Shown here: piece after piece, positions 32,541-52,713 of the stretch
Layout of the letters: each line of letters opens with the position of its first letter
Position numbering within the stretch: position 1 is the stretch's first letter
Source: Ruminiclostridium herbifermentans
GTDB lineage: Bacteria; Bacillota; Clostridia; Acetivibrionales; DSM-1351
Length of the DNA: 64,000 nucleotides
Assembly: GCF_005473905.2 (NCBI RefSeq)
Contig: NZ_CP061336.1
Location: forward strand, 4,208,501 to 4,272,500
Reading direction: 5' to 3'
The notes under the pieces: model-generated
Told to the model about the DNA's origin: nothing
The model's database searches: none
What the model saw: the letters and a program-made list of their open reading frames with translations, nothing else
Program-made: the position numbers and the translations under genes

Positions 32541-32712
32541 CTCCTTTTCAATTCAATGCAAAAATTAAACCCTTTGCATGCACATAGACATACAAAGGGT
32601 GATTAACCGTTATTAATTCAACCTCGGTAGGGTGATTATCATCAAATTACGCATCAGTATATGATATACTGTGCACCTACTGTCTATGGCATACTATTTA
32701 ATTGACATAGAA
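32541..32712 (-). ncRNA. L10 leader (autoregulatory ribosomal protein leader)
   Basis: The 250-bp gap before rplJ carries on the minus strand CACCCTACCGAGGTTG and, closer to the gene, the hairpin CCCTTTGTATG...CATGCAAAGGG, with AGACAGTAGGTGCAC further upstream. These match the usual arrangement of the Firmicute L10 leader, where the L10-L12 complex binds and represses. A promoter lies at its 5' end. Assignment by pattern memory, not a covariance search. Confidence 0.75.
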
Positions 32713-35313: not shown

Positions 35314-35516
35314 GAAATAATTTAACAAAACATTACATAATAAATTCAGACATACTTCTCTTATAAAGCTAGTTTCAAAGAATAATTATTCTCAGAAAAA
35401 CGTAATACTATTCTTCAATTTAAAACCTATTCAGTTTTCACTGATTTTGGCAAGAGACACTGTCATGATTTTCTTTTGCAAAGAAATTCTCTATACACCG
35501 TTATCTTAGTGCAAAA

Positions 35517-35752
35517 AATAGTACTAAGTACCAGTATATATCTAATTTATAAGCTCAGTCAGAAATTGATGCTAGAAATAGCAGGTGAGGAACAAGTATT
35601 GTAACCGGCACAGCTGAAATAAGCAGCTGTGAGTATTACATCAAGACAATATGCCTTGGTAATGCGGTCATCGGAAATGCCTGCTTAGCACCATAATTAT
35701 TTCAGCATCAATATCTAGAATGAGCCATATTAAATGCACGGGAGTGCTATTT
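35517..35752 (+). repeat. Dispersed structured element, copy 1 (236 bp)
   Basis: Bounded by AATAGTAC and GTGCTATT (imperfect terminal inverted repeat). The arms form a long imperfect stem including GATGCT / AGCATC. The apex holds CACAGCTG / CAGCTGTG and GTATTAC / GTAATGC hairpins. It is homologous along its whole length to 48266-48502 and, inverted, to 52418-52656. Sequence similarity extends about 50 bases further left (TTGCAAA...ATCTTAGTGCAAAA). It lies in the rpmG-ilvB spacer, which has no gene. Confidence 0.85.
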
Positions 35753-35816
35753 AAACAGTTTAATGCTTTATTTTTTCTTGTTTTAAACCCCCAATATTGC
35801 ATCAGCACATTCTTGC

Positions 35817-37496
35817 TTAGCAATCTACCACATCGCATAAAGCAGCACCAGGCGGCACTATTGGTGATACCTTGTCATCCTTATCAATTGCAAAATTTAA
35901 CAATACAGGTGTATTAGTCTCTGCTAGTGCAGAAATAATAGCACTATCCACTTGTTCTGGGGATGTTACATTTATTCCCTTTGCACCAAAAGCATTTGCT
36001 AATGCAGCGAAATCAGTTCCCCTATCAATAGAAGTCTGACTAAACCTGCTGTCAAAAAACAGTTCCTGCCATTGTCTAACCATTCCTAGTGCTCTATTAT
36101 TAAACAGTGCTATTATAATAGGTAGTTTATACTCAACAGCGGTAGCAAGTTCATTTAAGTTCATTCTAAAACTGCCATCACCTGCTATATTTATAACCTT
36201 TTTATCGGGTCTTGCCAATTGAGCACCTATACATGCTCCCAATCCATAACCCATTGTTCCAAGCCCGCCAGAAGATATAAATTGCCTAAATCTGCTATAC
36301 TTATAATATTGCGCTGCCCACATCTGATGTTGACCAACCTCAGTAGTAATAAGTGCTTCTCCTTTTGTTAATTCATATATCCTCTCTACAATGTATTGGG
36401 GACGAATAATATCTTTTGAGTAAGTATATCTTAATGGATATTCTTCCTTCCATTTGTTAATTCTATTTATCCATTCAGGATTTTTCTTTTTGATAATTCC
36501 CGCCTGTATTGCTTTTAGTATTTTCTTTACATCTCCTACGAGCGGATAATCTACATTTAAGTTTTTTCCTATTTCTGCACCATCAATGTCAATATGCATT
36601 ATTTTTGCTTTTTGTGCAAAACTACTAACCTTACTGACAATTCGATCACTAAATCTATTTCCTATAGCAATAACTAAGTCAGAATTATGAAATGCATAGT
36701 TTGATGTCTTTGTTCCATGCATCCCAACCATTCCCATGAACAGTTGATGCGTTCCTGGAAATGTCCCCATTCCCATTAACGATGTGCTAACTGGAATATC
36801 AGCCATTTCTGCTATAGAGCGTACGTATTCCTCTGCTGAAGCAATACCTACACCTGCCCCAGACAAAATAACAGGTCTTTCAGCATTATTAATTGCATTT
36901 ATTGCTTCTTCAATTGCAGAATTGCTTATATCATGATATTTATTTGAAACGTAATCGGTTTTTTCAGGCTTTTTAGGCGTATATTCAACCATTGCAGCAG
37001 TAACATCTTTACATACATCAACTAAAACCGGACCAGGTCTGCCTTCTCTTGCTATAGCAAATGCTTTGCGCATAGTATCTGCCAGTTGAGTAACATCCTT
37101 AACAATGAAATTATGTTTAGTAATTGGCATGGTTATCCCAGTGATATCAACTTCCTGGAAGGAGTCCTTTCCTAGTAAGTTGGTTGGAACTTGCCCTGTT
37201 ATTGCAACCATAGGTACAGAATCCATATATGCTGTAGCAATTCCAGTAACTAAGTTAGTTGCTCCTGGGCCAGAAGTTGCAATACAAACGCCAACCTTGC
37301 CAGTTGCTCGTGCATATCCATCTGCTGCATGTGATGCACCTTGTTCATGAGATGTAAGTATATGAGTAATCTCATTTCTCGCCTTATACAAAGCATCATA
37401 TATAATTAAGGCCTGCCCCCCTGGATAGCCAAATACTATATCAACACCTTGCTCTTTTAAACATTCTATAATAACATCAGCACCTGATAACATCAT
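35817..37496 (-). CDS. ilvB: Acetolactate synthase, large subunit
   Basis: Thiamine-diphosphate enzyme condensing pyruvate (or pyruvate plus 2-ketobutyrate) in branched-chain amino acid synthesis. 559 residues, full length. The N-terminal catalytic Glu lies in SHEQGASHAADGYAR, YPGGQAL marks the entry strand, and the ThDP/Mg motif reads GDGSFRMNLNELATAVEYKL...FNNRALGMVRQWQ. The central FAD-binding domain is present, which favours the anabolic IlvB type. No ilvN regulatory subunit is adjacent. It lies 436 bases after ilvD; that spacer contains two copies of the small repeat family. The ATG pair at 37496/37493 follows GGGAG. Confidence 0.95.
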   Translation of the reverse strand: MMLSGADVIIECLKEQGVDIVFGYPGGQALIIYDALYKARNEITHILTSHEQGASHAADGYARATGKVGVCIATSGPGATNLVTGIATAYMDSVPMVAITGQVPTNLLGKDSFQEVDITGITMPITKHNFIVKDVTQLADTMRKAFAIAREGRPGPVLVDVCKDVTAAMVEYTPKKPEKTDYVSNKYHDISNSAIEEAINAINNAERPVILSGAGVGIASAEEYVRSIAEMADIPVSTSLMGMGTFPGTHQLFMGMVGMHGTKTSNYAFHNSDLVIAIGNRFSDRIVSKVSSFAQKAKIMHIDIDGAEIGKNLNVDYPLVGDVKKILKAIQAGIIKKKNPEWINRINKWKEEYPLRYTYSKDIIRPQYIVERIYELTKGEALITTEVGQHQMWAAQYYKYSRFRQFISSGGLGTMGYGLGACIGAQLARPDKKVINIAGDGSFRMNLNELATAVEYKLPIIIALFNNRALGMVRQWQELFFDSRFSQTSIDRGTDFAALANAFGAKGINVTSPEQVDSAIISALAETNTPVLLNFAIDKDDKVSPIVPPGAALCDVVDC

Positions 37497-37582
37497 AGGC
37501 CCATCATCTCCCTTTATTTTTTAACACCTGAATCATAATGAAATTTTTAGAATATAAAAAGCTAAAAAAACTTCATTAAATT

Positions 37583-37682
37583 CAGCGGTGTTTCAATGAG
37601 GCAAAGATATTCTTATTATCTAATACTCAATTCCTTACCCATTCACTTATAGAAGTGGGAAGCATTTTTCTTGCCTCGTTAT
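37583..37682 (-). repeat. Small structured repeat family II, copy A
   Basis: About 100 bp with outer arms around TGAGGCAA and TTGCCTCG and an inner hairpin CACTTATAGAAGTG. Related over its whole length to 37750-37847 and 55786-55886. It lies in the leader of ilvB, 87 bases before the start codon. Confidence 0.75.
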
Positions 37683-37749
37683 ACCCCCAATTTCAAATAG
37701 AAATTTTCAATTTCAGAAAAGCTTCTTTAATTTCAGTCTTTTTTAATTT

Positions 37750-37847
37750 CAGTTGTGTTTAATTGATACAATAATATTCTCAACACCTGAAAACCAAAGT
37801 AGTATCCTCAACTTATTGAAGTAGGGGACACTTTCTTACCTCGATTT
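37750..37847 (-). repeat. Small structured repeat family II, copy B (degenerate)
   Basis: Same orientation as copy A and 67 bases from it; shares GTGTTT, ATATTCT, ACTTATTGAAGT and TTTCTTACCTCG with it. More diverged, with weaker outer pairing. Together with copy A it fills most of the ilvD-ilvB spacer, which contains no gene. Confidence 0.6.
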
Positions 37848-37932
37848 AAAATAGCAAAAAGCAAAAGGTCATAATATTAGTTGTTACTTCCCACTATCCT
37901 CAATTATTGCAGTGTAACTTAAATTACTCGAA

Positions 37933-39591
37933 TTACTTCAATACTGCTCCTGTACTTGCAGATGTAACCATTCTTGCATATCTTCCTAGATAGCCCGATT
38001 TTATCTTTGGCTCAGGTGCTATCCAGCTTGCTTTTCGTTTACTTAATTCTTCTTCTGAGACTTCAATATTTAAAGTACCTGCTGGAATATTAATATCTAC
38101 AATGTCTCCTTCTTTTATAAATGCTATAGGCCCGCCTTCCATTGCTTCTGGAGATACATGACCTATTGAAGCACCTCTTGACGCCCCAGAAAATCTTCCA
38201 TCTGTAATAAGCGCCACATCACAATCCAGTCCCATACCTGCTATTGCAGAAGTTGGCCCAAGCATCTCACGCATGCCAGGTCCTCCCTTTGGCCCCTCAT
38301 AGCGAATTATAACAACATCGCCCTTTACTATCTCTCCATTGTATATAGCTTTAATAGCATCATCTTCACTATCAAATACTCTTGCAGGACCTTTGTGTAC
38401 TAACATAGAATCTGCTACAGCAGATCTCTTAACTACTGCCCCATCCGGAGCAATATTTCCTTTGAGTACAGCTATGCCTCCTGTAACGCTATGTGGGTTG
38501 TCAACGCTTCTTATAACATTGTAGTCTTTTACTTTAGCATTTTGAATATTTTCCTTTACTGTCTTACCAGTAGCTGTTATTAAGTCTGTATGCAATAATC
38601 CCTTGGATGAAAGTTCCTTCATAACAGCCTGTACTCCACCTGCTGCATATAAGTCCTGAATATGATAGCTTCCAGCAGGAGCGAGTTTACATAAATTTGG
38701 TGTTCTTGAACTAATTTTATTTATAATATCTAAATCTATTTGTATACCTGCTTCATTTGCAATTGCAGGCAGATGCAATACAGAGTTTGTTGAACACCCT
38801 AGAGCCATATCCACTGTTAGTGCATTTTCAAATGCTTCTATTGTCAATATGTCTGACGGCTTAATATCTTTTTCAACCAGTTCCATTATCTTCATACCCG
38901 CTTGCTTTGCCAATCTAATTCTTTCAGCATAAACAGCAGGTATAGTACCATTACCCGTCAATCCCATTCCAAGCACTTCTGTAAGGCAATTCATAGAATT
39001 AGCAGTAAACATTCCAGAACAAGAACCACAGCCTGGACAAGCATTGTTTTCTAAGTCACATACCTCATCTTCAGTAATTTTCCCTGCTTTAAATGCGCCT
39101 ACAGCTTCAAAAACGCTATTTAAATCCAGCTGTTTTCCATCTCTATTTAGCGAAAGCATTGGGCCGCCGCTAATAACTATCGCTGGCACATTAATTCTAG
39201 CCGCTGCCATAAGCATTCCGGGAACTATTTTGTCACAGTTAGGGATAAACACCATACCATCAAAGCTGTGAGCTCTTCCCATAGCTTCACAGGAATCAGC
39301 AATAAGCTCTCTTGTAGCTAATGAATACTTCATTCCCACATGCCCCATTGCTATTCCGTCGCATACACCTATGGCTCCAAACTCAATTGGCGTTCCTCCG
39401 GCCATCCTTATACCTGCTTTAACAGCTTCAGTAATTTTGTCTAAGTGTATATGTCCAGGAATTATCTCATTTTTTGCATTAGCAATACCAATAAGAGGTC
39501 TTTCAAGTTCCTCGTCTGTATATCCCATTGCTTTAAATAGTGATCTATGTGGAGCCTTTTCAATGCCTTTTTTTACGATATCACTTTTCAT
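37933..39591 (-). CDS. ilvD: Dihydroxy-acid dehydratase
   Basis: Fe-S enzyme converting 2,3-dihydroxy acids to 2-keto acids, the third step of valine and isoleucine synthesis. 552 residues, full length. Cluster-binding cysteines lie in [10 protein letters not shown] and [42 protein letters not shown] is the C-terminal signature. The ATG at 39591 follows CAAGGAGGTAG. It is followed on the same strand by ilvB. The genes ilvC and ilvN are not in this window. Confidence 0.97.
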
Positions 39592-40053
39592 ATAACTACC
39601 TCCTTGAGCAAAATCAAACTCAAATAATATAACATTACTTCGCTTATTTTTATTGTTAATAATACTAATATTAATAACTTAACTTTCGAATGAAAAACCC
39701 ATCCACGCCTAAATTTGCTAATGGCAGTTGTCAATAAAACCAACTTAATTTAATTAAACCAATTAACTTTTCATTTGATAAGCTGAATACCTGCATTTCA
39801 ACTAGGAAAGTTGAATTAATAATATTTTGTAATCTATAAAACTATAAGAATTCCATATATGCAAGCTACTGCATTATAGGTCCCTATAATATTGTGAATT
39901 ATTACAGAAATCTTTATAAAGTAACAGCTGGGATGTACTCCCAGCATGTAAGAATATTGTACTATTTACTTAAAATTATGTCTACAAATAAAGGGGAAAT
40001 GGATAAAAAACGTTCAAAAGAAGATATGTTCTAAATAAAAAACATTAAGGTAA
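39592..40053. other. ilvD upstream spacer with one hairpin
   Basis: AT-rich, no gene. A short stem GCTGGGA / TCCCAGC with a five-base loop is at 39927-39945. Without a T-run it is a weak terminator for the cvpA unit. I did not find a T-box (no AGGGTGGNACCGCG-like motif). Confidence 0.5.
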
Positions 40054-40779
40054 TTAATTGCTTTTTGCCACATCTGGACTTGATAAATTAAGTTCTTCCT
40101 CGGGAGAAATCCAACTTACAATAAAATTATTCTGATAGAAGTAATTAGCGAATTTAGAATCTTCTATACTTTCAATCGTTGGTTCAAATTTTGGAAAAGC
40201 ACTGAATAGAATAAGAACGGCACATAATACATATACCACAAGAATTCCTTCAATTGCACCTAAAACAATTCCTCCAGTTTTATCAAGCTGTTTAAACACA
40301 GGCAACTTTGATATGGTTTTTATTATTACTCTTATAAAAATTAAAGCAAATCTTATTATTAGATAAATCAATATAACACTTAAAATATTTACTACTAACA
40401 TAGCTATTTCTGAACCAATAGCATCTATTATTTTTTGAAATCCAAAAATGTCCTGCCCTAAGACCTTTTCATTAATTGAGTCCTTTATAAAACCAGGAAG
40501 CTTTAGACCATCAATTATTGCTTGCGCAGAGTCTTCATTAGGTACAGTAGAATTGCCCATCTGACGTTTTGTAATACCATCTATCACAGCTTTTTTAATA
40601 TTTTCATATAAAACTGTTTTTTGAAGAATATTAGATATTATAGGATAAAATTTAATAGCAAAAATAACTGACATTACATACGATATCAGTCTAAATACAG
40701 AATATAAAAACCCGTTTTTCAAGCCATAAACCATAAATGCGGCTATTATAGCAAAAACAGCAATATCTGTCCAATTCAT
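40054..40779 (-). CDS. CvpA family membrane protein
   Basis: A 241-residue integral membrane protein related to CvpA (colicin V production protein family). Helices: IAVFAIIAAFMVYGLKNGFLYSVFRLISYVMSVIFAIKFY at the N-terminus, then after a cytoplasmic or external loop IAMLVVNILSVILIYLIIRFALIFI and GGIVLGAIEGILVVYVLCAVLILF. The biochemical role of CvpA in Firmicutes is not established. It follows the DUF5711 gene by 16 bases, so the two probably form an operon. Confidence 0.85.
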   Translation of the reverse strand: MNWTDIAVFAIIAAFMVYGLKNGFLYSVFRLISYVMSVIFAIKFYPIISNILQKTVLYENIKKAVIDGITKRQMGNSTVPNEDSAQAIIDGLKLPGFIKDSINEKVLGQDIFGFQKIIDAIGSEIAMLVVNILSVILIYLIIRFALIFIRVIIKTISKLPVFKQLDKTGGIVLGAIEGILVVYVLCAVLILFSAFPKFEPTIESIEDSKFANYFYQNNFIVSWISPEEELNLSSPDVAKSN

Positions 40780-40795
40780 ACTAAGCCCTTTCTAA

Positions 40796-41992
40796 TTATA
40801 CTGCAATATTTACAAATGAAATAACTCCCCCTGATATAACAATGGCATCTTTATTTCCAACAAGATAAGCATCTTTTATCTCATTTTTAGATGAGTACTG
40901 GCCAAGCTTCTTTCCATCTAATGTATACAAGTAAACACTTTTTTTAGTTCTTAATGCTATTCTGTCACCATATATATGAATTCCAGCAATATTTTCTGGT
41001 TGGTCAAAACTATAGACTTCCTCACCATTTCTATTTAGAACCAAAATTTTCTGCTTTGTTATTCCTGAAGCATTATTAAAATTTCCTGCAATTATTATAT
41101 ATTTTTTGCTATTTGGAGCAATACAATATAATGAATCAGCACTCTTTCTCCAAACCTCTTTACCTTGCTTGTCCATAAATAAAATAAGATTTTGCCCCAC
41201 AGCTATTTCATTTTCGCCACTAGAAATTAATATTGGAAGTATACTGTCTGTAACAGCAATAGTTGCAAATGGTTTCTCCTCGTATATATCGTTAAATTCT
41301 AATATGGAACCTGCCTTTACTCCATTTGTATCAACCTTATTAATTAATACATTTTGACCTTTATGGATAGACTTTGCATCAATAACAATATCCTCTGCAC
41401 ATAGTTTTGTGTATTTATCCACACCATTTATATCAAAAACTTGAACTGTAGATTTATACTCTGTAGATTGAGTGACAACTGTACAACAACCATCATCACT
41501 TACATTTGCATTTATTATTTGATTATCCATCTTCTTTGACCACAAAAGTGTTTTATCTTTGTAAAAATAAATATCCCTGCCTGAAACATCAGCCACAGCC
41601 ATGTATTTATCGGAGCATCTTATAACAGGTTTTGTAAGGGTAAATGCATTTTCTTGAATTAATTTACCGTTTGTGTTATACCATTTAATTCCATCTTTTG
41701 ATAACACTATTATATAATTTTTATATAGTTTGCAATCAACACTTCCATCTTGAGAAAATGATATTTCTGAGGCAACTATGCTTTTAGCCTTGTTATTTTT
41801 TATAAAGGTAATGGCATCTTTGATTTTAAACGAAGAAAAATCATAGCCCGCACTTTTTAGGTAAACAGCAACTGCTACAAGAGTTATTGCAAAGATGAGC
41901 AGCAGTGACACTATTACACCAAAAAAGGAACTTGATTTTTCTATACTTGGTTTTTCTATATTAGAAGCTTTAGGATTTGAATCTGAATCCAT
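40796..41992 (-). CDS. DUF5711 family protein, membrane-anchored beta-propeller
   Basis: A 398-residue protein with a short cytoplasmic N-terminus, one membrane helix (FFGVIVSLLLIFAITLVAVAVYL) and a large external domain of repeated beta strands, such as YIIVLSKDGIKWYNTNGKLIQE and DRIALRTKKSVYLYTLDGKKLGQY, reading as a beta-propeller. It matches the DUF5711 family found next to cvpA in clostridia. Function unknown. I chose the ATG at 41992 (MDSDSNPKAS) after ATGAGGTG; the frame opens at 42007 ahead of that site. Confidence 0.8.
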   Translation of the reverse strand: MDSDSNPKASNIEKPSIEKSSSFFGVIVSLLLIFAITLVAVAVYLKSAGYDFSSFKIKDAITFIKNNKAKSIVASEISFSQDGSVDCKLYKNYIIVLSKDGIKWYNTNGKLIQENAFTLTKPVIRCSDKYMAVADVSGRDIYFYKDKTLLWSKKMDNQIINANVSDDGCCTVVTQSTEYKSTVQVFDINGVDKYTKLCAEDIVIDAKSIHKGQNVLINKVDTNGVKAGSILEFNDIYEEKPFATIAVTDSILPILISSGENEIAVGQNLILFMDKQGKEVWRKSADSLYCIAPNSKKYIIIAGNFNNASGITKQKILVLNRNGEEVYSFDQPENIAGIHIYGDRIALRTKKSVYLYTLDGKKLGQYSSKNEIKDAYLVGNKDAIVISGGVISFVNIAV

Positions 41993-42075
41993 CTTGATAC
42001 ACCTCATTTTTCATTTGTGTATTAAAATTTTAGCATATGCAGATAATTATGTCCATGTCAGCCATTTAATATAGC

Positions 42076-43134
42076 CTAAGCTTTAGTTAGCTTACATTTT
42101 ATAAACTGCAGTAAAATTACAAAAACCAGAAACAAACCTAAGTAGCCAAATACCGGATAAAGAGTTGCTATCAAGCTTGAGAACCCCATAGATGACATTG
42201 GTATTACAAGAGCACACATTACTACTGCAACAATCCTGTAATTTATATTCATTTTTGCTGCAATACGTTCAGATAAGCAATATCCTGATGTAATAGCAGA
42301 TGTATACATTGCCAATATTAAAATAACACTATAAATATTTCCCAATAATTGATTATTATTTTGTAGTATACTCAATACTGGCATTTCAGAAGTAATTGAT
42401 TTAGGATAGAAAAAGTACAATGCAAAGTTTAAAATCAGTACTGTCAAGCAAAGCATACCTCCACCAAGTATTCCACCCCATGTGCTGACCCTCTTTGTCT
42501 TCAGGTAGGGTAATACACTAGTTAGCATTACAGTTGATAAAATTGTGTTGTAGCTGACATACAGAAGGGATGAAAATACCCAATTGTTAGTCACTCTAAC
42601 CACCTTATTTGAAAGGCTAAACACAGATGTGTCCTTAGTTACTATCATGTAAATTCCTACGAATAAAATACCTACAACTAAAAAGGGTGAAAGAAAGGAA
42701 CTGACAGCCACTATCCCTTTTATATTTGTCATAATAGCCAGCAAACACACAATAGCACTTATTACAACACAATATCTATATTCTATCCCTGTTAGTTCCA
42801 TTAATATACTTCCAAGTCCAGCTACCATAACACTCAATACGCATGACATAAACAGCATTACTATAAATTCCATAATTCTTCCTAAGAAGTATCCCATCAT
42901 GGGAAATAAAAACTCATCATAAGATTTAATCCTCTCTGAATAAACCCTATCTAAAATTGCATATCCAATAATTGAAAATAGAACTCCTGTCAATAATGCG
43001 CCGTAAAAACCACCATTATAGTACTTTGAAAAAAACTGAATTATTTCCTGACCTGATGCAAAACCAGCACCTATTACTGTTGCCATATAAAGAAAAGCAA
43101 CCTTAAATATATTACTTATTTCTCCCTTTATCAA
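42076..43134 (-). CDS. YkvI-like membrane carrier
   Basis: About 352 residues with ten or so membrane helices, starting with KVAFLYMATVIGAGFASGQEIIQFF, the signature of the YkvI family, distant relatives of the LeuT/APC transporters. The substrate is unknown. The start is unclear: TTG at 43134 (MIKGEISNIFK) lies nine bases after GGGAG, but that whole stretch is part of the terminator hairpin at 43133-43219. TTG at 43143 is also possible. The gene is preceded by the DUF4340 gene on the same strand. Confidence 0.8.
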   Translation of the reverse strand: MIKGEISNIFKVAFLYMATVIGAGFASGQEIIQFFSKYYNGGFYGALLTGVLFSIIGYAILDRVYSERIKSYDEFLFPMMGYFLGRIMEFIVMLFMSCVLSVMVAGLGSILMELTGIEYRYCVVISAIVCLLAIMTNIKGIVAVSSFLSPFLVVGILFVGIYMIVTKDTSVFSLSNKVVRVTNNWVFSSLLYVSYNTILSTVMLTSVLPYLKTKRVSTWGGILGGGMLCLTVLILNFALYFFYPKSITSEMPVLSILQNNNQLLGNIYSVILILAMYTSAITSGYCLSERIAAKMNINYRIVAVVMCALVIPMSSMGFSSLIATLYPVFGYLGLFLVFVILLQFIKCKLTKA

Positions 43135-43219
43135 AAAAAGCAACTCCCAACATAGATTTTTTAGTACTGGTACAACAATTACTTAGTTGTCCCTTAATAT
43201 AATTCTATGTGAGAGTTGC
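43133..43219 (-). terminator. Terminator after the ABC/Gld operon, overlapping the YkvI-like start
   Basis: On the minus strand GCAACTC and ACATAGA pair with TCTATGT and GAGTTGC around a long loop that has its own small stem (ACAAC / GTTGT), followed directly by a run of seven T. The GGGAG ribosome binding site of the next gene is in its 3' arm. Confidence 0.8.
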
Positions 43220-43283
43220 TTATCACATTACATATTATTTAGTTTTGACGAGTCTTTAATAAATCACCAAACAAACGACCGCT

Positions 43284-44675
43284 TTATTGCTTTTCAGACT
43301 CCTTTAAAGCTTCCATTAATTCATTATAGGTTGTTCTAAGTCCATCTTTTTCATTTAGCCTTGACTTTTGAACAACTTTATTTGTATAAACACCATCTTT
43401 AACTGCATAATAGTAGTTACTATCCTTTGAAATCAAATCTACTGTAACTATTTTTGAATCTTTCATGTGATATTTAATGGAAATTTCAGGTGTACCCGAT
43501 GGTTTTGCATCAACTTCATATTTTTGCATTGTAATACCAATCATACCCTGATACATATTTCTGAACAAGGAATCTCCTTTTTCGTTCTTCATATTTGCAT
43601 CAGTTCCATTTACCTTAAACTTGTCATCTGAAGAATCTTCCCCAGTAGTTATATCACATACTAGTTTTTTACCATCAATAAGCAGTTCAACCTTATTTAC
43701 ATCCTTTATATTAGGCAAATATATAAAGGAATATATAATATCCTCCAGCTTAGTATCAAGGAATGTCAATGGAGAAGTATCAATAGTAAAAATGCTATTC
43801 TTTTCTGCATATTTTGCATATCTAATAGTACCCTTTTCAACATAATTACCAAACAGAATATTTTTTGTTGTAGTAGCATCTCCAAATTTAAGCACATATG
43901 CAGGTTTATCTAATCCATATTTGTTAAGGTCAGTAGGATTATTATCAACAACATCGTTTATAGTTAGTTGAGTAACTGCTTGCAGCATTTTAGATACATC
44001 AGAAGTATCTGCTACTTCCTTAATTGGCTCTACAATATTCATTTCAGTTTCTGAAACAATATCAACTGCATACTGCACTTGTCCATTTTTCTCATATGAG
44101 AAAGTTTTTAGTGTCGTAGCATCAACAGGTAGTATATCTTTCTTCACAAAATACCCGTAAGTAGGTTCAAATTTACTGGTATAGTACGTACCAACCAAAT
44201 AAACTTTTGACTCCCCGCTCATTTTGCAGTATCTGCCATCCTCTGTAAGAGTATATGAACCAACCAGAAGTTCTTTTGAACTTCCATCAGAAAGTCCAAC
44301 CTTTACTGTTATAGGCTTGTCCAATCCATACTTGGATAAGTCAGTAACATTTTCTTCTATGACCTTATTAGCAACAATAGAAGACATATCTGTAACAGCA
44401 CCATCTGCATTTAAATTATCTACTTCAAAATCATATGAAGGGTCTATTGACCATTTATCATCCTTCTTTGTTATTGTAAAAGTACCATTATCATTATTAA
44501 AAGTTATTGATGTAATCTGTTCTCTTTCAGATTTCATTACATAGATTGTATCATCAATGATGCTTTCATCTAATGGATCTGAATTGGCTGTTTGTCTGCT
44601 ACTGATATAAAAGTATGCTCCAATCAGTAGTCCTAAAATTACAATAAGTATAACAGCATTCCTATATAACTTCAT
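43284..44675 (-). CDS. DUF4340 domain protein of the Gld-type ABC operon
   Basis: A 463-residue protein with an N-terminal membrane anchor (NAVILIVILGLLIGAYFYIS) and an external region of repeated DUF4340 units (VMKSEREQITSITFNNDNG, LSKYGLDKPITVKVGLSDGSSKELLVG, then LNKYGLDKPAYVLKFGDATTTKNILFG). It starts three bases after the preceding gldG-like gene, so it is co-translated with it. Such proteins accompany Gld-like ABC exporters in clostridia; the role is unknown. The ATG at 44675 follows AGGAGGCAC. Confidence 0.85.
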   Translation of the reverse strand: MKLYRNAVILIVILGLLIGAYFYISSRQTANSDPLDESIIDDTIYVMKSEREQITSITFNNDNGTFTITKKDDKWSIDPSYDFEVDNLNADGAVTDMSSIVANKVIEENVTDLSKYGLDKPITVKVGLSDGSSKELLVGSYTLTEDGRYCKMSGESKVYLVGTYYTSKFEPTYGYFVKKDILPVDATTLKTFSYEKNGQVQYAVDIVSETEMNIVEPIKEVADTSDVSKMLQAVTQLTINDVVDNNPTDLNKYGLDKPAYVLKFGDATTTKNILFGNYVEKGTIRYAKYAEKNSIFTIDTSPLTFLDTKLEDIIYSFIYLPNIKDVNKVELLIDGKKLVCDITTGEDSSDDKFKVNGTDANMKNEKGDSLFRNMYQGMIGITMQKYEVDAKPSGTPEISIKYHMKDSKIVTVDLISKDSNYYYAVKDGVYTNKVVQKSRLNEKDGLRTTYNELMEALKESEKQ

Positions 44676-44678
44676 ATT

Positions 44679-46091
44679 TTATAAGTGCCTCCTTCTAGTC
44701 CAAACAACCAATCCAATTACCAAAATAATAACTGGAACAACACCAATTAATATAATGGAAATAATCTTTGCCTGGCTCTTAGTAGTTGACAAGCTTTTTG
44801 TTGAAACAATTTTTGGTGATATTGTTGTTTCATCTGTTTTGTCTGACAACCAGTTAACTAATGTACTTGTAAAGTATACTTTACCATTTGAAAAATACGA
44901 CGCATATCGGCTCATTAAAGCAGCATCTGTCAAAAATGTTCCATTACCAAAAACTAAAATCTTACTACCACCAGATATTTCAGACGCAATAGCTAAAGGA
45001 AAAGGACCTTTTTCGATAGCATCCTGATCTGTAATTTTAACTGATTCTGCATCATAACTAGTTGTAATCAAAGATGTAGTAGTAAGCCATTCCTTAGCTA
45101 CTTGTAATACACTTAAGCTTCTTGAATCAGGCATAAGCACCTGGAATTCACCATAAGAATTGAAGCTAGAGTTGATTTTATTTGATGTTAATGCTGCTAT
45201 AAGTGAATATTCATCTCCTGGTAAGCAATTAGTAGTATCTCTTACCTTGTCATAATTCAAAGCAACATTGTATGTGGCGAGAATTTCTTCAAAATTAGTC
45301 ATCTTTTTATCTGATTCAATAGGGTCAAATAGGAAAACTGCCCTACCACCAGCTTCTAAATATGTTTTCAATACAATTTTTTCAGATTCAGATAAATCCA
45401 CCTTTGGTGATGCAAATATTAGCAATTTACAATCATCTGGGATTTTTTCTACAGTCATAAGTGAAAGTGATTTAGCCTCAAAATTATTGTTTTCAATATC
45501 TGCTCGTAGCTGTGTTAAATTTGATGTAAGAGAATATTCACTATGTCCTTCAACAAAATAAGCAATAGGAGTAGAATCTGCAGTTACAAACTTGATAGCA
45601 CCTGTTATAAGAGGTTCAGCTTTGTAAACTCTGCCGTACATTGAATTTTCGCCATAAAGTTCACTTGCAATAAGTCTTTTAACCTTGTTGCCGCTCTTTA
45701 CAACAAAATCTCCCTTTGCAATACCTTTTGTTTTATCCTTGTCAAGAAATGTAAGTGTTCCAGGATCCTTATCAGGATCAACATAAGTAACCTTTATTCC
45801 GTAATCTTTGTATTCATCTAAAAGATTAATTAATTCTTTGTATTGTGATCCAGCTGGTATATGTCCATCATCAAACAAACCATAAATTGTTACTTCTTTT
45901 TTAACTGCATTTAATATTTTTTTGCTATCTTCGCTAAGACTATATAAATTTGATGAAGTCAAATCCCATCTAAAATCACCTAAACCAACAAGCAGGTTAA
46001 TTATTACAGCCAAAGCTAAAACGATAACTACTAATAATATGGAATTTGAACCATACTTAAGAGATTTCTTGTTAATTTTAAATTTCCCCAC
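44679..46091 (-). CDS. GldG-family ABC transporter auxiliary protein
   Basis: 470 residues: an N-terminal membrane helix (SILLVVIVLALAVIINLLVG), a long external domain of the GldG/ABC_transp_aux type (DLTSSNLYSLSEDSKKILNAVKKEVTIYGLFD; VAYFVEGHSEYSL-like region; AGGRAVFLFDPIES), and a C-terminal helix (IISIILIGVVPVIILVIGLVVW). It starts with GTG at 46091 after AAGGGGTGA, and follows the permease gene by six bases. In Bacteroidetes the Gld proteins act in gliding, but in clostridia the operon is thought to be an exporter of unknown substrate. Confidence 0.85.
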   Translation of the reverse strand: MGKFKINKKSLKYGSNSILLVVIVLALAVIINLLVGLGDFRWDLTSSNLYSLSEDSKKILNAVKKEVTIYGLFDDGHIPAGSQYKELINLLDEYKDYGIKVTYVDPDKDPGTLTFLDKDKTKGIAKGDFVVKSGNKVKRLIASELYGENSMYGRVYKAEPLITGAIKFVTADSTPIAYFVEGHSEYSLTSNLTQLRADIENNNFEAKSLSLMTVEKIPDDCKLLIFASPKVDLSESEKIVLKTYLEAGGRAVFLFDPIESDKKMTNFEEILATYNVALNYDKVRDTTNCLPGDEYSLIAALTSNKINSSFNSYGEFQVLMPDSRSLSVLQVAKEWLTTTSLITTSYDAESVKITDQDAIEKGPFPLAIASEISGGSKILVFGNGTFLTDAALMSRYASYFSNGKVYFTSTLVNWLSDKTDETTISPKIVSTKSLSTTKSQAKIISIILIGVVPVIILVIGLVVWTRRRHL

Positions 46092-46097
46092 TTTTTA

Positions 46098-46805
46098 TCA
46101 CCCCTTGCTCCATCTTCTTTTTTCTATTACTCTAATTGCTAAGAATACAAATACTGCTGAAAAACTTAAATAATATACTATTGCCTTAAGTGAAAGTATT
46201 CCTGCAAATAAATCTTCTGTTCTAGAATACAATGAGAACCAGTTTAGAATATCTGCCCAAATTCCACCAAGATTAGGAGCTATTCCTTGCAGCAGCCACA
46301 TAATCAAAAGACCCACTACACTGATTATTGCAGCCACAATCTGACTTTCAGTTAAAGATGATGAAAACAAACCAAAAGCTATAAATGAAGCTCCAAGAAG
46401 TATATAACCTACGTATCCACCAACTATTTCAGGTATGTCAGGGTTTCCAAATATTTTAAGTAATACAGGATAAACAAATGTTATTACAGTCATAACCATA
46501 AAAACAGAAAAAGCAGCTAAGTACTTTCCAATAATAATCTTTGTTAAACTAGTTGGTGATGTTCTTAAGAGCACTTCAGTACCACTTTTTCTTTCATCTG
46601 CAAGTATTTTCATTGTCAATATAGGAATTATAAGTATTAAAAAAAGTGACATATAAGATAGATTTAAGTAATTATACTCCGCAGTAGGCGAAGCTAAATT
46701 GATATAAAATACAATTGATGATAATAGCAAAAACAAGCTAATCATTACATACGCTATTGGCGAAGTAAAGTAAGCCCTAAACTCCTTTTTAAACACGGCT
46801 AACAT
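46098..46805 (-). CDS. ABC transporter permease (GldF/ABC-2 type)
   Basis: A 235-residue permease with six membrane helices (FRAYFTSPIAYVMISLFLLLSSIVFYINL at the N-terminus through YYLSFSAVFVFLAIRVIEKRRW). The cytoplasmic segment TMKILADERKSGTEVLLRTSPTSL is typical of the ABC-2/GldF group. The ATG at 46805 follows AAGGAGG. It follows the ATPase gene after two bases and must form a complex with it. Confidence 0.9.
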   Translation of the reverse strand: MLAVFKKEFRAYFTSPIAYVMISLFLLLSSIVFYINLASPTAEYNYLNLSYMSLFLILIIPILTMKILADERKSGTEVLLRTSPTSLTKIIIGKYLAAFSVFMVMTVITFVYPVLLKIFGNPDIPEIVGGYVGYILLGASFIAFGLFSSSLTESQIVAAIISVVGLLIMWLLQGIAPNLGGIWADILNWFSLYSRTEDLFAGILSLKAIVYYLSFSAVFVFLAIRVIEKRRWSKG

Positions 46806-46807
46806 AA

Positions 46808-47755
46808 TTATATAACCTCCTTTTCTTGCGTGGTTAATTGTAAGAATATCTCTTCAAGTGAAAGATCCAAGGATTTTAATTCAATTATAGGATATCCAGC
46901 TTTTGCCATAGCAAAAAATAGAGGTCGTCTAATATCCGTCTCTTTATCAGATTCTATAATATATTCAATAACATCATTATCTTTTTGAATATGAGGTTCT
47001 ACATATTTAATTCCATAAATTTCTTCAATACTGCTCACTATTGAACTCTTTGGTCCAGCAATTGATACTGATATTTTACTTACTGTTCCCATTCCCTTTG
47101 AAAGATTTTCAGGAGTGTCAATTGCAGCGATCTTACCTTTATTAATAATTACAACTCGTTCACAAACAGCACTTACTTCAGGCAAAATATGAGAACTGAG
47201 TATTATAGTATGCTGCTTGCCAAGTGCCTTGATTAATTTACGAATTTCAATTATTTGCATAGGGTCCAATCCAACAGTAGGTTCATCTAGAATTAAAACC
47301 TCTGGCGCACCTAGAAGGGACTGAGCTAGTCCAACTCTCTGCTTGTAACCTTTTGACAGATTTTTTATTAATCTTCCACGTACATCACCTAATTTGACAA
47401 GCTCCATAACGTCTGAAATTTGACTATTTTTCTGTTTCTTACTAACAAGTTTCAATTCAGCCACAAAGTTAAGATACTCAATAACAGTCATATCCATATA
47501 TAATGGCGGTAATTCTGGCAGGTATCCAATTCTCTTTTTTACTTCTTCTGGACTTTCCATAATATCATACCCACATACTTTTACCGTACCCTCGGTAGAA
47601 GGAATGAAGCCAGTAATGATATTCATAGTAGTTGATTTTCCAGCACCATTAGGACCAAGAAAGCCAAGCACTTCACCTTTTTCAACTGTAAAACTTATAT
47701 CGTCTACAGCCTTTATCTGACCGTAACTTTTGGTCAAATTCTGAATCTCGATCAT
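46808..47755 (-). CDS. ABC transporter ATP-binding protein (GldA/NatA-like)
   Basis: A 315-residue ATPase with Walker A GPNGAGKST, Q-loop in IGYLPELPPLY, signature LSKGYKQRVGLAQSLL, Walker B VLILDEPTVGLDP and switch His in SSHILPEV. A C-terminal extension of about 90 residues (KISVSIAGPKSSIVSSIEE onward) is usual in this subfamily. It is the first gene of the operon ATPase, permease, gldG-like, DUF4340. The ATG at 47755 follows GGGGGGAA. Confidence 0.93.
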   Translation of the reverse strand: MIEIQNLTKSYGQIKAVDDISFTVEKGEVLGFLGPNGAGKSTTMNIITGFIPSTEGTVKVCGYDIMESPEEVKKRIGYLPELPPLYMDMTVIEYLNFVAELKLVSKKQKNSQISDVMELVKLGDVRGRLIKNLSKGYKQRVGLAQSLLGAPEVLILDEPTVGLDPMQIIEIRKLIKALGKQHTIILSSHILPEVSAVCERVVIINKGKIAAIDTPENLSKGMGTVSKISVSIAGPKSSIVSSIEEIYGIKYVEPHIQKDNDVIEYIIESDKETDIRRPLFFAMAKAGYPIIELKSLDLSLEEIFLQLTTQEKEVI

Positions 47756-47895
47756 TATATTCCCCCCTAAATTGTTACGTACATATTTTCAAAAAACATT
47801 TCTTCTACTGATACACTTACATATTATCCACAATTATTTTTAATAAACTATGAACGGAATGTAAAATTTTATATGAAAAAATGTTTAATTAAATG

Positions 47896-47940
47896 AAAAA
47901 TGGCTAATTTAACATTCAAGTTATAGTTTAGCCATTAATT
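47896..47940 (-). terminator. Terminator after the P-type ATPase gene
   Basis: AATGGCTAA (47899-47907) pairs with TTAGCCATT (47928-47936), with TTTTTC on the minus strand. It is 600 bases past the ATPase stop, so the transcript would include element copy 2 as 3' untranslated region. Confidence 0.7.
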
Positions 47941-48265
47941 GATTATATATTCTTTTTACTGTGTTTTCAAGTGTATGCAAACGCTTCTGTTCAAACTGTA
48001 CCTTCTAGTAGCCATTGGGCCTAATAATATAATTAACTGAGTCTATATGTGTCAAAACTTTTCAATGGAAAGTTGGGTTAGAAATAGTTAAATGAATTAG
48101 TTGTATGAAAAAGGCTTGCATACGGAATATATAAATTTTTGTATTGATTAAACCACAAAATCAGTATTCATGTATTATTTATAGTTGCTAAGCAAATTCC
48201 AAGTTTTTTGCTGAAGGTTCTGGTGCAAAACAACATTTTCTGTATATCGGTATCTTAATGAAAGA

Positions 48266-48502
48266 AATAGTACGCGAGTGTAATATATATCTAATTGCGA
48301 AGCTCGGTTAGAAATTGATGCTAGAAATAATAGGTGAAGAACAAGTATTGTAGCTGACACAGTTACAGGAAGTAACTGTGAGTATTGATCCGAGACAGGA
48401 TGCCTTTGTTCAATACGGTCGGCGGAAGTGCTGTTCTTCACCGCAATTATTTCAGCGTCAATTTCGTGAGCAAACAATATATATTGCTACGTCGTACTAT
48501 TT
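48266..48502 (+). repeat. Dispersed structured element, copy 2 (237 bp)
   Basis: Ends AATAGTAC and GTACTATT. The arms pair over about 70 bases, including GATGCT / AGCGTC (one G-U) and GGTGAAGAACA / TGTTCTTCACC. Apex: GCTGAC / GTCGGC enclosing CACAGTTAC / GTAACTGTG and GTATTGA / TCAATAC. Closest to copy 3 in the 5' half. It lies between the P-type ATPase and the ABC operon. The 100-codon frame crossing it on the other strand is not a gene. Confidence 0.87.
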
Positions 48503-48541
48503 AAGCAGTTTACTGTTGATTATATTTCAAAGCGATACCCT

Positions 48542-51268
48542 CTATTGATCCAAACCCCTCCTATTTCTTTTAAACATACTTGATAGAATAGGAACTATCA
48601 GTGAAACACCAATAATTATAAACCACTCACTTATTCCTAATGCCACAGTATCAAAAATTCCTTGTAACACTGGAACATAAACAACCGCCAATACCATAAT
48701 TATTGAACACAAAACCGCTAACACTAATGGTATATTATTAAATAAAGAATTTTCAAATATATTTCTTGTTTCCGACTTACACTCAAATACATGTATTAGC
48801 TGGGTTATAACCAAGGTCATAAAGGCACTGGTTCGTGCTGTTTCTACATCGCCTAAGATGTAGAAAATACTCATAAATACACCTAATGTGCTTAGTCCAA
48901 TAAATATTCCCCTTGTAACTATCAATCTCAATAAACCATGAGAAAAAATATTGTCATTTGCCCCTCTTGGTCTTTGCATCATAATATCCTTTTCTGGAGG
49001 ATCTAATCCCAAAGCAATTGCAGGCAATCCATCTGTGGCAAGATTAACCCAAAGGATTTGAATTGGCAATAGAGGTATTGGTAACATCAACAATATGCCT
49101 AAAAACATTGTCAGCACTTCTCCAAGATTACAAGCAAGCATATATCTAATAAACTTTCGAATATTATTATATATTACACGTCCTTCTTCAACGGCTGCTA
49201 CTAAAGTAGCAAAATTATCGTCTAAAAGCACCATTGACGAAGCTTCTTTTGTAACATCAGTACCGGTTACGCCCATTGAAACACCTATGTCAGCCTCTTT
49301 TACTGCAGGTGCATCATTTACTCCGTCACCTGTCATTGCTACAATATGACCTAGAGACTTAAGCACTCTAACAATCATAAGCTTATGCTTCGGCGATACT
49401 CTTGCATAAACCGAAACCGTTTTAGCTACTTTTGCAAGCTGTCCATCAGTCATCTTATCCAGGTCTGCTCCTGTCAAGACTTCATCTCCATCACAGTAAA
49501 TATTTAATTCTTTTGCAATGGCAGCAGCTGTAAGCTTATGGTCTCCTGTAATCATTATCGGCTTTATTCCAGCCAATTTACATTTTTGTACTGCTACTAC
49601 AGCTTCTCTTCTAGGCGGATCAATCATTCCCATTAATCCGACAAAAATAAGGTCCTTTTCTAAATTTTTAGCTTCTGCTCTGTATGTACCTGTCTCTAGC
49701 TTTTTATAAGCCAAGCCCATTACTCTGAGTGCGTTACTTGCCATTGTATCATTTATTCTCGTAATACTTCTCTTTGCTATATCGTCTAGCTTAGTAATTC
49801 CTCTTGAAGACATGACTCTGTTACATTTATCAATAATCATATCAGGAGCACCCTTTGTAAATACAAATATTTCGCCACTAGAATTTTTACAAACTACCGA
49901 CATACACTTTCTGTCAGCATCAAAAGGCAACTCATCTATTCTGTGATAACTGCTATTTAAGCGGCTTCGAGTAATTCCTGCCTTCATAGCAGCAATAGTC
50001 AACGCAGCTTCAGTTGGGTCTCCTGTTATTTTCAGATTTGATTGTTTAGAAAATAAGGCTTTTAGCTTTCCAACTGCCATATTATTATTGTTTTCAGTGG
50101 TACAGACAGAATTATTGCACAAAGCCCCAATTTCAAGAGCCAGCTTTATACCTTCCATTCTAAGTGGATCAGTTTGCTTTTTGCCAGCCATAAAGCTGCC
50201 CTCAGTGCTATAACCGCTGCCAGTTACATCTAGTTCACATCCAGCTGCATATATTTTCCTGACTGTCATCTTGTTTTCTGTCAATGTTCCTGTTTTGTCA
50301 GAACATATAATACTTGCACAGCCTAGTGTTTCAACTGCAGGAAGCTTACGAATTAATGCATTTCTCTTTAGCATTCTCTGTACACCTAACGCAAGAGCAA
50401 TGGTAACTATGGCAGGTAACCCTTCTGGAATAGCCGCTACAGCTAAGCTAATCCCTGCTAAAAGCATGGTTAAAAGCTGCTCACCTCTTAAAATTCCTGT
50501 TATAGAAACAATAGTACAAATTGCTAAGCATCCAATTGCAATATATTTTCCCAGATGGGATAGCCTTTTTTGAAGTGGGGTTTCATCATCTTCTATGTTT
50601 TGAATCATATCAGCGATATTCCCCATTTCAGTCTTCATCCCTGTTGCATAAACTACCGCCTTAGCTCTTCCACCTGTTACAACTGTGCCCATGTATACAG
50701 AGGATTTCTTATCATAGGAATTAATTAAAGAATCTTTTATTTTTAGTGCATGCTTTTCTACGGGAACAGATTCCCCCGTAAGAAGTGATTCATCAACGTA
50801 TAAACTATTACATTCAAGAATTGCAGCATCTGCGGCAATTCTGTCTCCAGTCTCAATTACAAGAACATCCCCCGGAACGATTTCTTCTGCCGGAATATTA
50901 ACCTGCTGTTCATTTCTGATAACCTTTGCAGATGGTGCTGCCAAGGATTTTAATGCCTCCATTGTTCTCTCTGTTTTAAATTCTTGAGCAAATCCCAAAA
51001 CAGCATTTACTATTACTATTGCTATTATTGTGATTGCCTCTGTCATATCACCCATAAATCCAGATATAATAGTTGCTATTATGAGAATAATAATCATTAC
51101 ATCTGTAAATTGCTGAAAGAGAATTTTAAGCGGAGATATTTTTTTTCTTTCGGATATAATATTAAAGCCATACTTCTGAAGCTTTTTCTTTGCTTCATTG
51201 TCAGTAAGCCCTTCAGTTAGTAAGTTTTTTGAATTTGCAAAGTTTAATCTAGATTCTGCTACGCTCAT
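48542..51268 (-). CDS. Calcium-transporting P-type ATPase (P2A/P2B type)
   Basis: A 908-residue cation pump. TGES in the actuator domain at 164-167, PEGLP at 281-285 in membrane helix 4, the phosphorylation site DKTGT at 324-328 (CSDKTGTLTENKMTV), and the hinge TGDGVNDAPAVKEADIGVSMG are all present. The four C-terminal helices contain NLATDGLPAIALGLDPPEKD, typical of Ca2+ pumps. It probably exports calcium from the cytoplasm. The ATG at 51268 follows TAGGTGA, partly inside a hairpin (AAAAATCT / AGATTTTT) that may limit translation. It is monocistronic. Confidence 0.94.
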   Translation of the reverse strand: MSVAESRLNFANSKNLLTEGLTDNEAKKKLQKYGFNIISERKKISPLKILFQQFTDVMIIILIIATIISGFMGDMTEAITIIAIVIVNAVLGFAQEFKTERTMEALKSLAAPSAKVIRNEQQVNIPAEEIVPGDVLVIETGDRIAADAAILECNSLYVDESLLTGESVPVEKHALKIKDSLINSYDKKSSVYMGTVVTGGRAKAVVYATGMKTEMGNIADMIQNIEDDETPLQKRLSHLGKYIAIGCLAICTIVSITGILRGEQLLTMLLAGISLAVAAIPEGLPAIVTIALALGVQRMLKRNALIRKLPAVETLGCASIICSDKTGTLTENKMTVRKIYAAGCELDVTGSGYSTEGSFMAGKKQTDPLRMEGIKLALEIGALCNNSVCTTENNNNMAVGKLKALFSKQSNLKITGDPTEAALTIAAMKAGITRSRLNSSYHRIDELPFDADRKCMSVVCKNSSGEIFVFTKGAPDMIIDKCNRVMSSRGITKLDDIAKRSITRINDTMASNALRVMGLAYKKLETGTYRAEAKNLEKDLIFVGLMGMIDPPRREAVVAVQKCKLAGIKPIMITGDHKLTAAAIAKELNIYCDGDEVLTGADLDKMTDGQLAKVAKTVSVYARVSPKHKLMIVRVLKSLGHIVAMTGDGVNDAPAVKEADIGVSMGVTGTDVTKEASSMVLLDDNFATLVAAVEEGRVIYNNIRKFIRYMLACNLGEVLTMFLGILLMLPIPLLPIQILWVNLATDGLPAIALGLDPPEKDIMMQRPRGANDNIFSHGLLRLIVTRGIFIGLSTLGVFMSIFYILGDVETARTSAFMTLVITQLIHVFECKSETRNIFENSLFNNIPLVLAVLCSIIMVLAVVYVPVLQGIFDTVALGISEWFIIIGVSLIVPILSSMFKRNRRGLDQ

Positions 51269-51458
51269 CTTGTCACCTATAAAAATCTTATATTAGGAGT
51301 CTAAAAAGATTTTTACCTTTCGTGTATTCTAAAAATATTTCTATTCATCAAAACACCGAAATAGTACAAGATTATTGTTTAATTTTTATTCTCTGTTTTT
51401 ATTCTATTGAACTTTAGAATATGAAAATAATAAACATTCCTCGAAAACTTTATTTTTT

Positions 51459-52151
51459 TTACTCTTCATATACACGTCTCACTGTATTATGACACAGAAC
51501 TGCCTCAATCACCTCTACCGTAGGAATGTCATTAGGTATTTGAATTTTGTATCGTAAAATCATTTCTCCATCTCTCTCACTGCTTACGAATTCAGTGTCT
51601 GTTACTGTCACTCCAAGTTCTTCAATAAGCTGGGAAAGTTCTCGTACTTCTCCTCTTTTTATCAAAGTATGAATACATAATCTGATATTTTTTTTAGAAG
51701 TCCTTCTCATTTGAACCTTTCTGATTACCACCAAAGTCAGAAAAATTATAATGGTTGCAATAAAGGCTCCCGAGTAAAAGCCAATGCCTACTGCTATTCC
51801 TACACATGAAACAGCCCAAAGACTAGCAGCAGTTGTCAGTCCTTTTACATTTATACCTTCTTTAATTATAGTGCCTGCACCTAAAAATCCTATTCCACTG
51901 ATAACTTGAGCACCTAGCCTTGCAGGATCTGCATTTACATTAGCTGAAAATTTATTAAAAATAAACTCGGAGGTAATCATTACTAACGCAGACCCTACAC
52001 ATACAAGTATATGTGTTCGAAAACCTGCCGGCCTATGCAGGTGTTCTCTCTCAAATCCGATAATTCCCCCAAGGAGGCAAGCTTCAAGAAGCCTTATAAT
52101 AATTGATAAATAGAATTCTGCCTGACCGATAAATGCATTGACTAGCCACAT
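51459..52151 (-). CDS. MgtC/SapB family membrane protein
   Basis: A 230-residue protein. The N-terminal membrane part carries the family motif GGIIGFEREHLHRPAGFRTHILVCVGSALVM and the region GAQVISGIGFLGAGTIIKEG, GLTTAASLWAVSCVGIAVG; a cytoplasmic C-terminal domain of about 80 residues follows, ACT-like in form. MgtC proteins are linked to magnesium limitation and membrane energetics; they are not proven transporters. The ATG at 52151 follows TTGGAGGTG. It is next to the calcium pump, suggesting a shared ion-homeostasis theme, but each looks separately transcribed. Confidence 0.92.
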   Translation of the reverse strand: MWLVNAFIGQAEFYLSIIIRLLEACLLGGIIGFEREHLHRPAGFRTHILVCVGSALVMITSEFIFNKFSANVNADPARLGAQVISGIGFLGAGTIIKEGINVKGLTTAASLWAVSCVGIAVGIGFYSGAFIATIIIFLTLVVIRKVQMRRTSKKNIRLCIHTLIKRGEVRELSQLIEELGVTVTDTEFVSSERDGEMILRYKIQIPNDIPTVEVIEAVLCHNTVRRVYEE

Positions 52152-52417
52152 TTTAGCACCTCCAAGTCTATTTTTATGTATAATTTAACTGGTTATTCTA
52201 ATTCGTTAAAACTGAGTATGCAGGCTAATTACTAAAGCTTACACCATTACAATTCAGTTATCTTAGAAGTAAACCTCTTATATAAATTTGTATGATAGCA
52301 CCAGTAAATCAGTACTTATATTTTACCCTATTATACCAACTCTAACCAAAAAGTGCTATGAGTATGGCAAAGAGGTTTTTACAAAACAATAATAACATAA
52401 TCAGCAGTATTTCCTTA

Positions 52418-52656
52418 AATAGTACTCCCGTGCAATATATATCTATTGCTCACTCATAAAATTGACGCTGAAATAAATACGGTGAAGAGCAAGCACTTCC
52501 GCCGACCGTATTAACAAGGCATCCTGTCTCGGGTTAATACTCACAGCTACGTCATGTAGCTGTGTCGGCTACAATACTTGTTCTTCACCTACTATTTCTA
52601 GCGTCAATTTCTAACCAAGCTTCGCAATTAGATACATATTACACTCGCGTACTATT
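52418..52656 (-). repeat. Dispersed structured element, copy 3 (239 bp, inverted)
   Basis: The same element on the minus strand. Arms include GACGCT / AGCGTC (a full Watson-Crick version of the G-U pair in copy 2). Apex: GCCGAC / GTCGGC, CACAGCTAC / GTAGCTGTG and GTATTAA / TTAATAC. The left extension (TTGCAAAAAACATTTT...TTATTGCAAAA) is also shared with copies 1 and 2. It lies in the 830-bp spacer between mgtC and spoIIR; the spacer holds no gene. Confidence 0.87.
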
Positions 52657-52713
52657 TTTTGCAATAAGACATCAGCATTCATAAAATGTTTTTTGCAACA
52701 ACCCCTTAAATAG

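Follow-up and report, generated by a model that had tools for sequence, protein, structure and literature searches.

The three dispersed repeats in the window (the whole 64,000 nucleotide stretch of DNA that was analysed) are probably copies of a non-autonomous, MITE-like DNA element that carries the TwoAYGGAY RNA as its core and is predicted to capture CsrA by means of that RNA. The first-pass annotation had offered three readings: a non-autonomous element mobilised by a transposase in trans, a folded RNA with mobility of its own, or a combination of the two. The evidence lies nearest to the combination, the transposase acting in trans being presumed.

The same annotation placed three copies in the window, homologous from end to end, and sequence alignment bears this out. 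The best pair among them is 86% identical (E ~1e-87, BLASTN within the window), and BLASTN of each copy against the window gave strong matches only to the other copies. The claimed termini AATAGTAC/GTACTATT, however, are internal repeats; the element is longer than 236-239 bp, and the repeats noted at first make up only the interior of an element of ~336 bp whose real ends lie further out. The copies and their parts are as follows.

35473..35784 (+): copy 1, full extent, consensus positions 5-325 (BLASTN of the 336-base consensus, 77% identity)
35609..35631 (+): copy 1, head hairpin 1 (CACAGCTG...CAGCTGTG), from the sequence
35633..35665 (+): copy 1, head hairpin 2, from the sequence
48220..48526 (+): copy 2, full extent, consensus positions 5-313 (BLASTN, 91% identity to the consensus)
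48216..48231 (+): copy 2, left terminal inverted repeat GGTTCTGGTGCAAAAC (found by pattern search with 3 mismatches against GGGGCTGTTGCAAAAC; this match alone is not above chance, with two hits in 7 of 100 shuffles)
48358..48380 (+): copy 2, head hairpin 1, loop ACAGGAAG (sequence and fold)
48382..48416 (+): copy 2, head hairpin 2 with GACAGGATG (sequence and fold)
52379..52705 (-): copy 3, full extent, consensus positions 1-329 (BLASTN, 91.5% identity to the consensus)
52690..52705 (-): copy 3, left terminal inverted repeat GGGGTTGTTGCAAAAA (pattern search, 2 mismatches)
52372..52389 (-): copy 3, right terminal repeat TTGTTTTGTAAAAACCTC, degenerate, from the sequence
52542..52564 (-): copy 3, head hairpin 1, loop CATGACG, GGA lost, from the sequence
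52508..52540 (-): copy 3, head hairpin 2 with GACAGGATG, from the sequence

Copy 1 is the most decayed of the three, with 21 broken pairs; copy 2 has lost its right end, its left terminal repeat being still recognisable; and copy 3 is in the sense orientation relative to the genes that flank it. The consensus displays GGA in both head loops, as does copy 2; copy 3 has kept one such loop and copy 1 neither. The genes of the window include those for a spore protein, CTP synthase and acetolactate synthase.

Further copies were looked for in the host genome (a single contig of 4.82 Mb, genus Ruminiclostridium), and about 70 were found. A search with one copy as query gave dozens more among the best 40 scored, and a 20-base core pattern, allowing at most 3 mismatches, matched 72 sites (3 for the reversed control pattern). 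Four of these 72 sites fall in the first 1.3 Mb of the contig (27% of the genome), and the other origin-proximal arm has many. When copies are aligned with their flanks, similarity reaches the outer inverted repeats GGGGCTGTTGCAAAACAA/TTGTTTTGCAACAGCCCC, giving the consensus of 336 bases, and shorter forms of ~155 bp and ~50 bp have the same ends and internal deletions. None of 57 copies examined in the analysed stretches lies inside a large ORF (ORFs being called mechanically); their spacers are tandem in 39 cases (17 sense, 22 antisense), convergent in 13 and divergent in 4. The family thus has the terminal inverted repeats, the many dispersed copies and the lack of coding capacity of a MITE. 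It is called only "MITE-like" because no target-site duplication was seen: one of 22 near-complete copies has a candidate, as against 1.6 in shuffles, and a search of the host genome for duplications of fixed length, 2-12 bp, found none. No match to the element was present in the plasmid and phage records searched.

No intact transposase with matching ends was found in the host genome or at the congener sites examined. The host genome has only degraded IS6-type transposase remnants with similar ends, and these are the best lead on what may have mobilised the family; an IS1182 transposase was also considered as the mobiliser and is absent.

G000:C1:4134411-4141247 and 4162062-4165199: degraded IS6-family transposase gene cluster (loci L081-L084), ends GGGTTCTGTTGCAAAAACTTTTGA

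Perfect hairpins of 38-50 bp, GGGGCTGTTGCAAAACAG...CTGTTTTGCAACAGCCCC, also occur throughout the genus (L064:2452-2501, L065:2866-2917, L268:264-308 and similar), often with A before and T after, and at least one occupies what seems to be the same site in genomes G001, G004 and G008; in appearance they are bidirectional terminators that recur in many copies and share the element's ends.

The first-pass annotation recognised no named family, and in this it was mistaken, since the core is Rfam RF01731, the TwoAYGGAY RNA. The match was found first through divergent homologues in congeners and then through other copies in the host genome, one of which (locus L003) scores 52.8 bits (E 3.8e-6; gathering cut-off 43) and another 37.8 bits. 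A scan of the whole host genome places RF01731 at four sites, with scores that include 55.3, 52.8 and 43.0 bits. In the window itself, at the curated cut-off, the three copies fall below the RF01731 threshold, and the Rfam scan reports only an ordinary ribosomal protein L10 leader (32555-32707, - strand, 61 bits). The family is defined by two adjacent hairpins with GGA-containing terminal loops, and the consensus and copy 2 both have them. A second, divergent type of TwoAYGGAY copy is present in the host at L118 (G000:C1:2533023-2533180), with loops CACGATG and CATGGATG and a fold, flanks included, of -139 kcal/mol. Identity with a catalogued RNA family had been named in advance as counting against the finding, and such an identity did come to light; it sharpens the finding and does not remove it.

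TwoAYGGAY was published in 2010, in a list of candidate RNAs from the human gut, gamma-Proteobacteria and Clostridiales (Weinberg 2010, PMC2864571). Gardner and Eldai (2014, PMC4333381) noted its likeness to the CsrA motif and proposed that it is an sRNA of Clostridia that binds CsrA, and an entry in Rfam 15 lists covarying pairs added for it. The literature passages that treat the family make no mention of mobility, and literature searches that combined CsrA with MITEs or with sponges turned up no precedent.

In its predicted fold the consensus is a single long hairpin that forks at the tip into two short ones, which form the head (-161 kcal/mol, z -16.5), and the copy at 48266-48502 gives -95.4 kcal/mol (z -10.8). 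The pairs that were quoted as compensated in the stems are present, but as proof of selection they are weaker than was claimed. Among 45 copies from the host genome, 45 pair-cells have both partners altered with pairing retained (25.8 +/- 4.2 in shuffles); controls in which the partner was slid gave 31-52 such cells, so that the observed number does not exceed them, and 405 pair-cells are broken by a single change. RNAalifold recovers 9 pairs only from these 45 copies because they decay and shift. Within the host genome, then, the copies mostly decay as repeats, and selection on the fold, read at first from covariation among three copies, is not shown by those copies alone; evidence of that kind comes from the comparison between genomes.

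For that comparison one sequence was taken per genome of the class scan, with five more from the genus (n=23, with no selection for pairing), and four bases on either side of the loops were scored against 5,000 shuffles. Pairing holds at 86 of 92 positions in the arms of hairpin 1 (46.6 on average in the shuffles, 64 at most) and at 70 of 92 in those of hairpin 2 (35.9 on average, 49 at most), and each hairpin is represented by 18 different arms among the 23 sequences. GGA is kept in 18 of 23 first loops and in 23 of 23 second loops, counts that must be read with the caveat that most of the sequences were found with a model favouring such loops; in the genus elements that came from the search by terminal repeat, loop 2 retains GGA and loop 1 reads CACGATG. 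This loop without GGA is also that of R. cellulolyticum-type elements, L118 and some copies in genome G251. The stems change between genomes yet stay paired, and the GGA loops persist, a pattern that is new to judge from the literature searched.

RF01731 occurs in 25 of the 245 Clostridia genomes of the class scan (the hit counts in several of them being at-least values), and the same head recurs with different stems and ends across ten families. Two genomes of the same genus carry homologous elements, and the conserved 20-base core pattern matches R. cellobioparum records. When the genus was searched blind with the host's terminal repeat alone, elements of 305-312 bp were found in genomes G002, G005 and G009; four elements found in this way were scanned and contain RF01731 at 37.4, 38.1, 42.3 and 44.9 bits, and BLASTN finds them similar to the window family in the terminal repeats only. 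Thus, within the genus, ends and RNA core travel together. In genomes G166, G269 and G072 the core sits between other repeated ends, and in G093 near-identical copies of 284-285 bp (two of 396-397) have the ends CTGCAATTCGTAATAT, which also bound elements of 65-463 bp. Direct repeats of at least 7 identical bases, mostly 8-10 bp, flank 20 of 25 G093 elements with these shared ends (1.1 on average in shuffles, 5 at most) and were taken as target duplications, which were seen for this relative only. A pair of G093 ends that bounds 1,521 bp was rejected as an autonomous copy, since it takes in a protease-like gene and has one poor end; also rejected was a Y1/REP-associated transposase as mobiliser, which is absent from G166, G141, G251 and G269. 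At the G251 loci L129-L137 the outer stems differ from copy to copy and are complementary over tens of bases, which may reflect long compensatory drift or the copying of one arm from the other. As far as the searched literature shows, it is a new finding that dispersed mobile elements in different Clostridia, with differing terminal repeats, have TwoAYGGAY as their conserved core.

The genomes with TwoAYGGAY are for the most part also those with csrA: 23 of 25, as against 84 of 245 overall (Fisher p 3e-10), or, with genera as the unit, 19 of 19 compared with 59 of 158 (p ~9e-10). The two genomes that depart from this have a completeness of 84% and 80%, and both have genus mates in which csrA is present. 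This is an association, which may come from shared ancestry, flagella/motility or genome size; to judge from the searched literature, it too has not been described before. The host has two csrA genes ~2.4 kb apart (G000:C1:162408-165021), and most relatives have one. It is from the motif and this co-occurrence that binding of CsrA by TwoAYGGAY elements is predicted.

Could the fold act as DNA, the palindrome extruding a hairpin for the transposition machinery, so that RF01731 would be a transposon palindrome misread as an RNA family? The terminal repeats, the target duplications and the near-palindromic design would all suit such a role, and there is a precedent in MIR1122, which a passage of the Rfam 12 paper (PMC4383904) suspects to be a plant MITE misread in this way. 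It is nevertheless unlikely. In each of the eight groups the strand that shows the GGA loops has, on average, a more stable fold than the complementary strand (the difference in G251 being negligible) because it makes use of G-U pairs, and this points to RNA; the GGA loops are strand-specific and conserved; the core is not needed as an end, there being no room for it in the smaller G093 elements that share those ends; and the csrA association also speaks against the DNA reading.

It also seems doubtful that these are CsrB-like sponges that were spread by transposition, are now within CsrA control and are kept for the host's benefit. The number of copies, the co-occurrence with csrA and the CsrA-binding sRNA of Clostridia that Gardner and Eldai proposed would fit, but copies in the host genome decay (the 405 broken against 45 compensated pair-cells given above) and their orientation to neighbouring genes is near random (in tandem spacers, 22 antisense and 17 sense). 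That one genome simply underwent an ordinary MITE burst, the shared fold being functionless and inherited from a single recent founder, would agree with that decay and with double changes no more frequent than in the slid controls, but it is highly improbable and largely refuted by the cross-genome comparison, where the same head recurs with different stems and ends in ten families of Clostridia.

The reading preferred here, a MITE-like element with a CsrA-capturing RNA core, can be put as a sequence of steps. A transposase supplied in trans would act on the outer repeats. Transcription of the inserted copy would probably come from read-through, the one copy scanned having shown no internal promoter; the copy's sense strand should fold into a hairpin of ~130 pairs with a forked head, whose two loops would each present GGA, the signature of CsrA sites, and a single CsrA dimer would be expected to clamp both. 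Copies in place are decaying, yet the head is retained from one species to the next, so the target of selection would seem to be the copies that spread and not a host function at each site. On this view it is the element that would benefit from CsrA binding: its read-through RNA would most plausibly be masked or stabilised, which would make an insertion less costly, and titration of CsrA would be a side effect. We suggest more tentatively, as an idea somewhat short of even likelihood, that TwoAYGGAY represents a class of selfish RNA cargo, in which MITE-like elements of Clostridia with different ends repeatedly carry a CsrA-capturing RNA and depend on CsrA for spread or tolerance. If true, a DNA transposon would have a regulator-binding RNA, not a gene, as its passenger. 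In any case an orphan RNA family gains a context, as a mobile-element core that occurs where csrA occurs; the question of its role, open since 2010, becomes directly testable, and the idea of CsrA-binding RNAs outside Proteobacteria receives support.

Like TwoAYGGAY as catalogued, the window family has two adjacent GGA-loop hairpins on a long stem and is found in Clostridia, but RF01731 is listed as a candidate cis-regulatory or sRNA motif, and the mobile-element setting, the copy number and the csrA association are absent from the published accounts of the family in the passages that describe it. The loops here, CAGGAAG/CAGGATG, are one base shorter than its CAYGGAYG. Bacterial MITEs such as RUP, Correia and Nezha share with the window family a size of ~300 bp, inverted-repeat ends, lack of an ORF, many intergenic copies and internal deletions; unlike them, the window family shows no target duplication and has a conserved RNA core common to elements with different ends. 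The ends of the host's IS6-family remnants, GGGTTCTGTTGCAAAAAC, resemble the element's GGGGCTGTTGCAAAAC at up to 13 of 16 bases, but the element has neither an IS6 transposase inside nor the 8-bp target duplication that, with such ends, would mark it as IS6-derived, and that origin is not supported. CsrA-binding RNAs of the CsrB/RsmY type likewise show paired GGA motifs in hairpin loops, and the CAGGA(U/A/C)G of the elements resembles the repeat reported for CsrB; TwoAYGGAY elements differ from them in offering only two candidate sites per RNA and in being dispersed and mobile.
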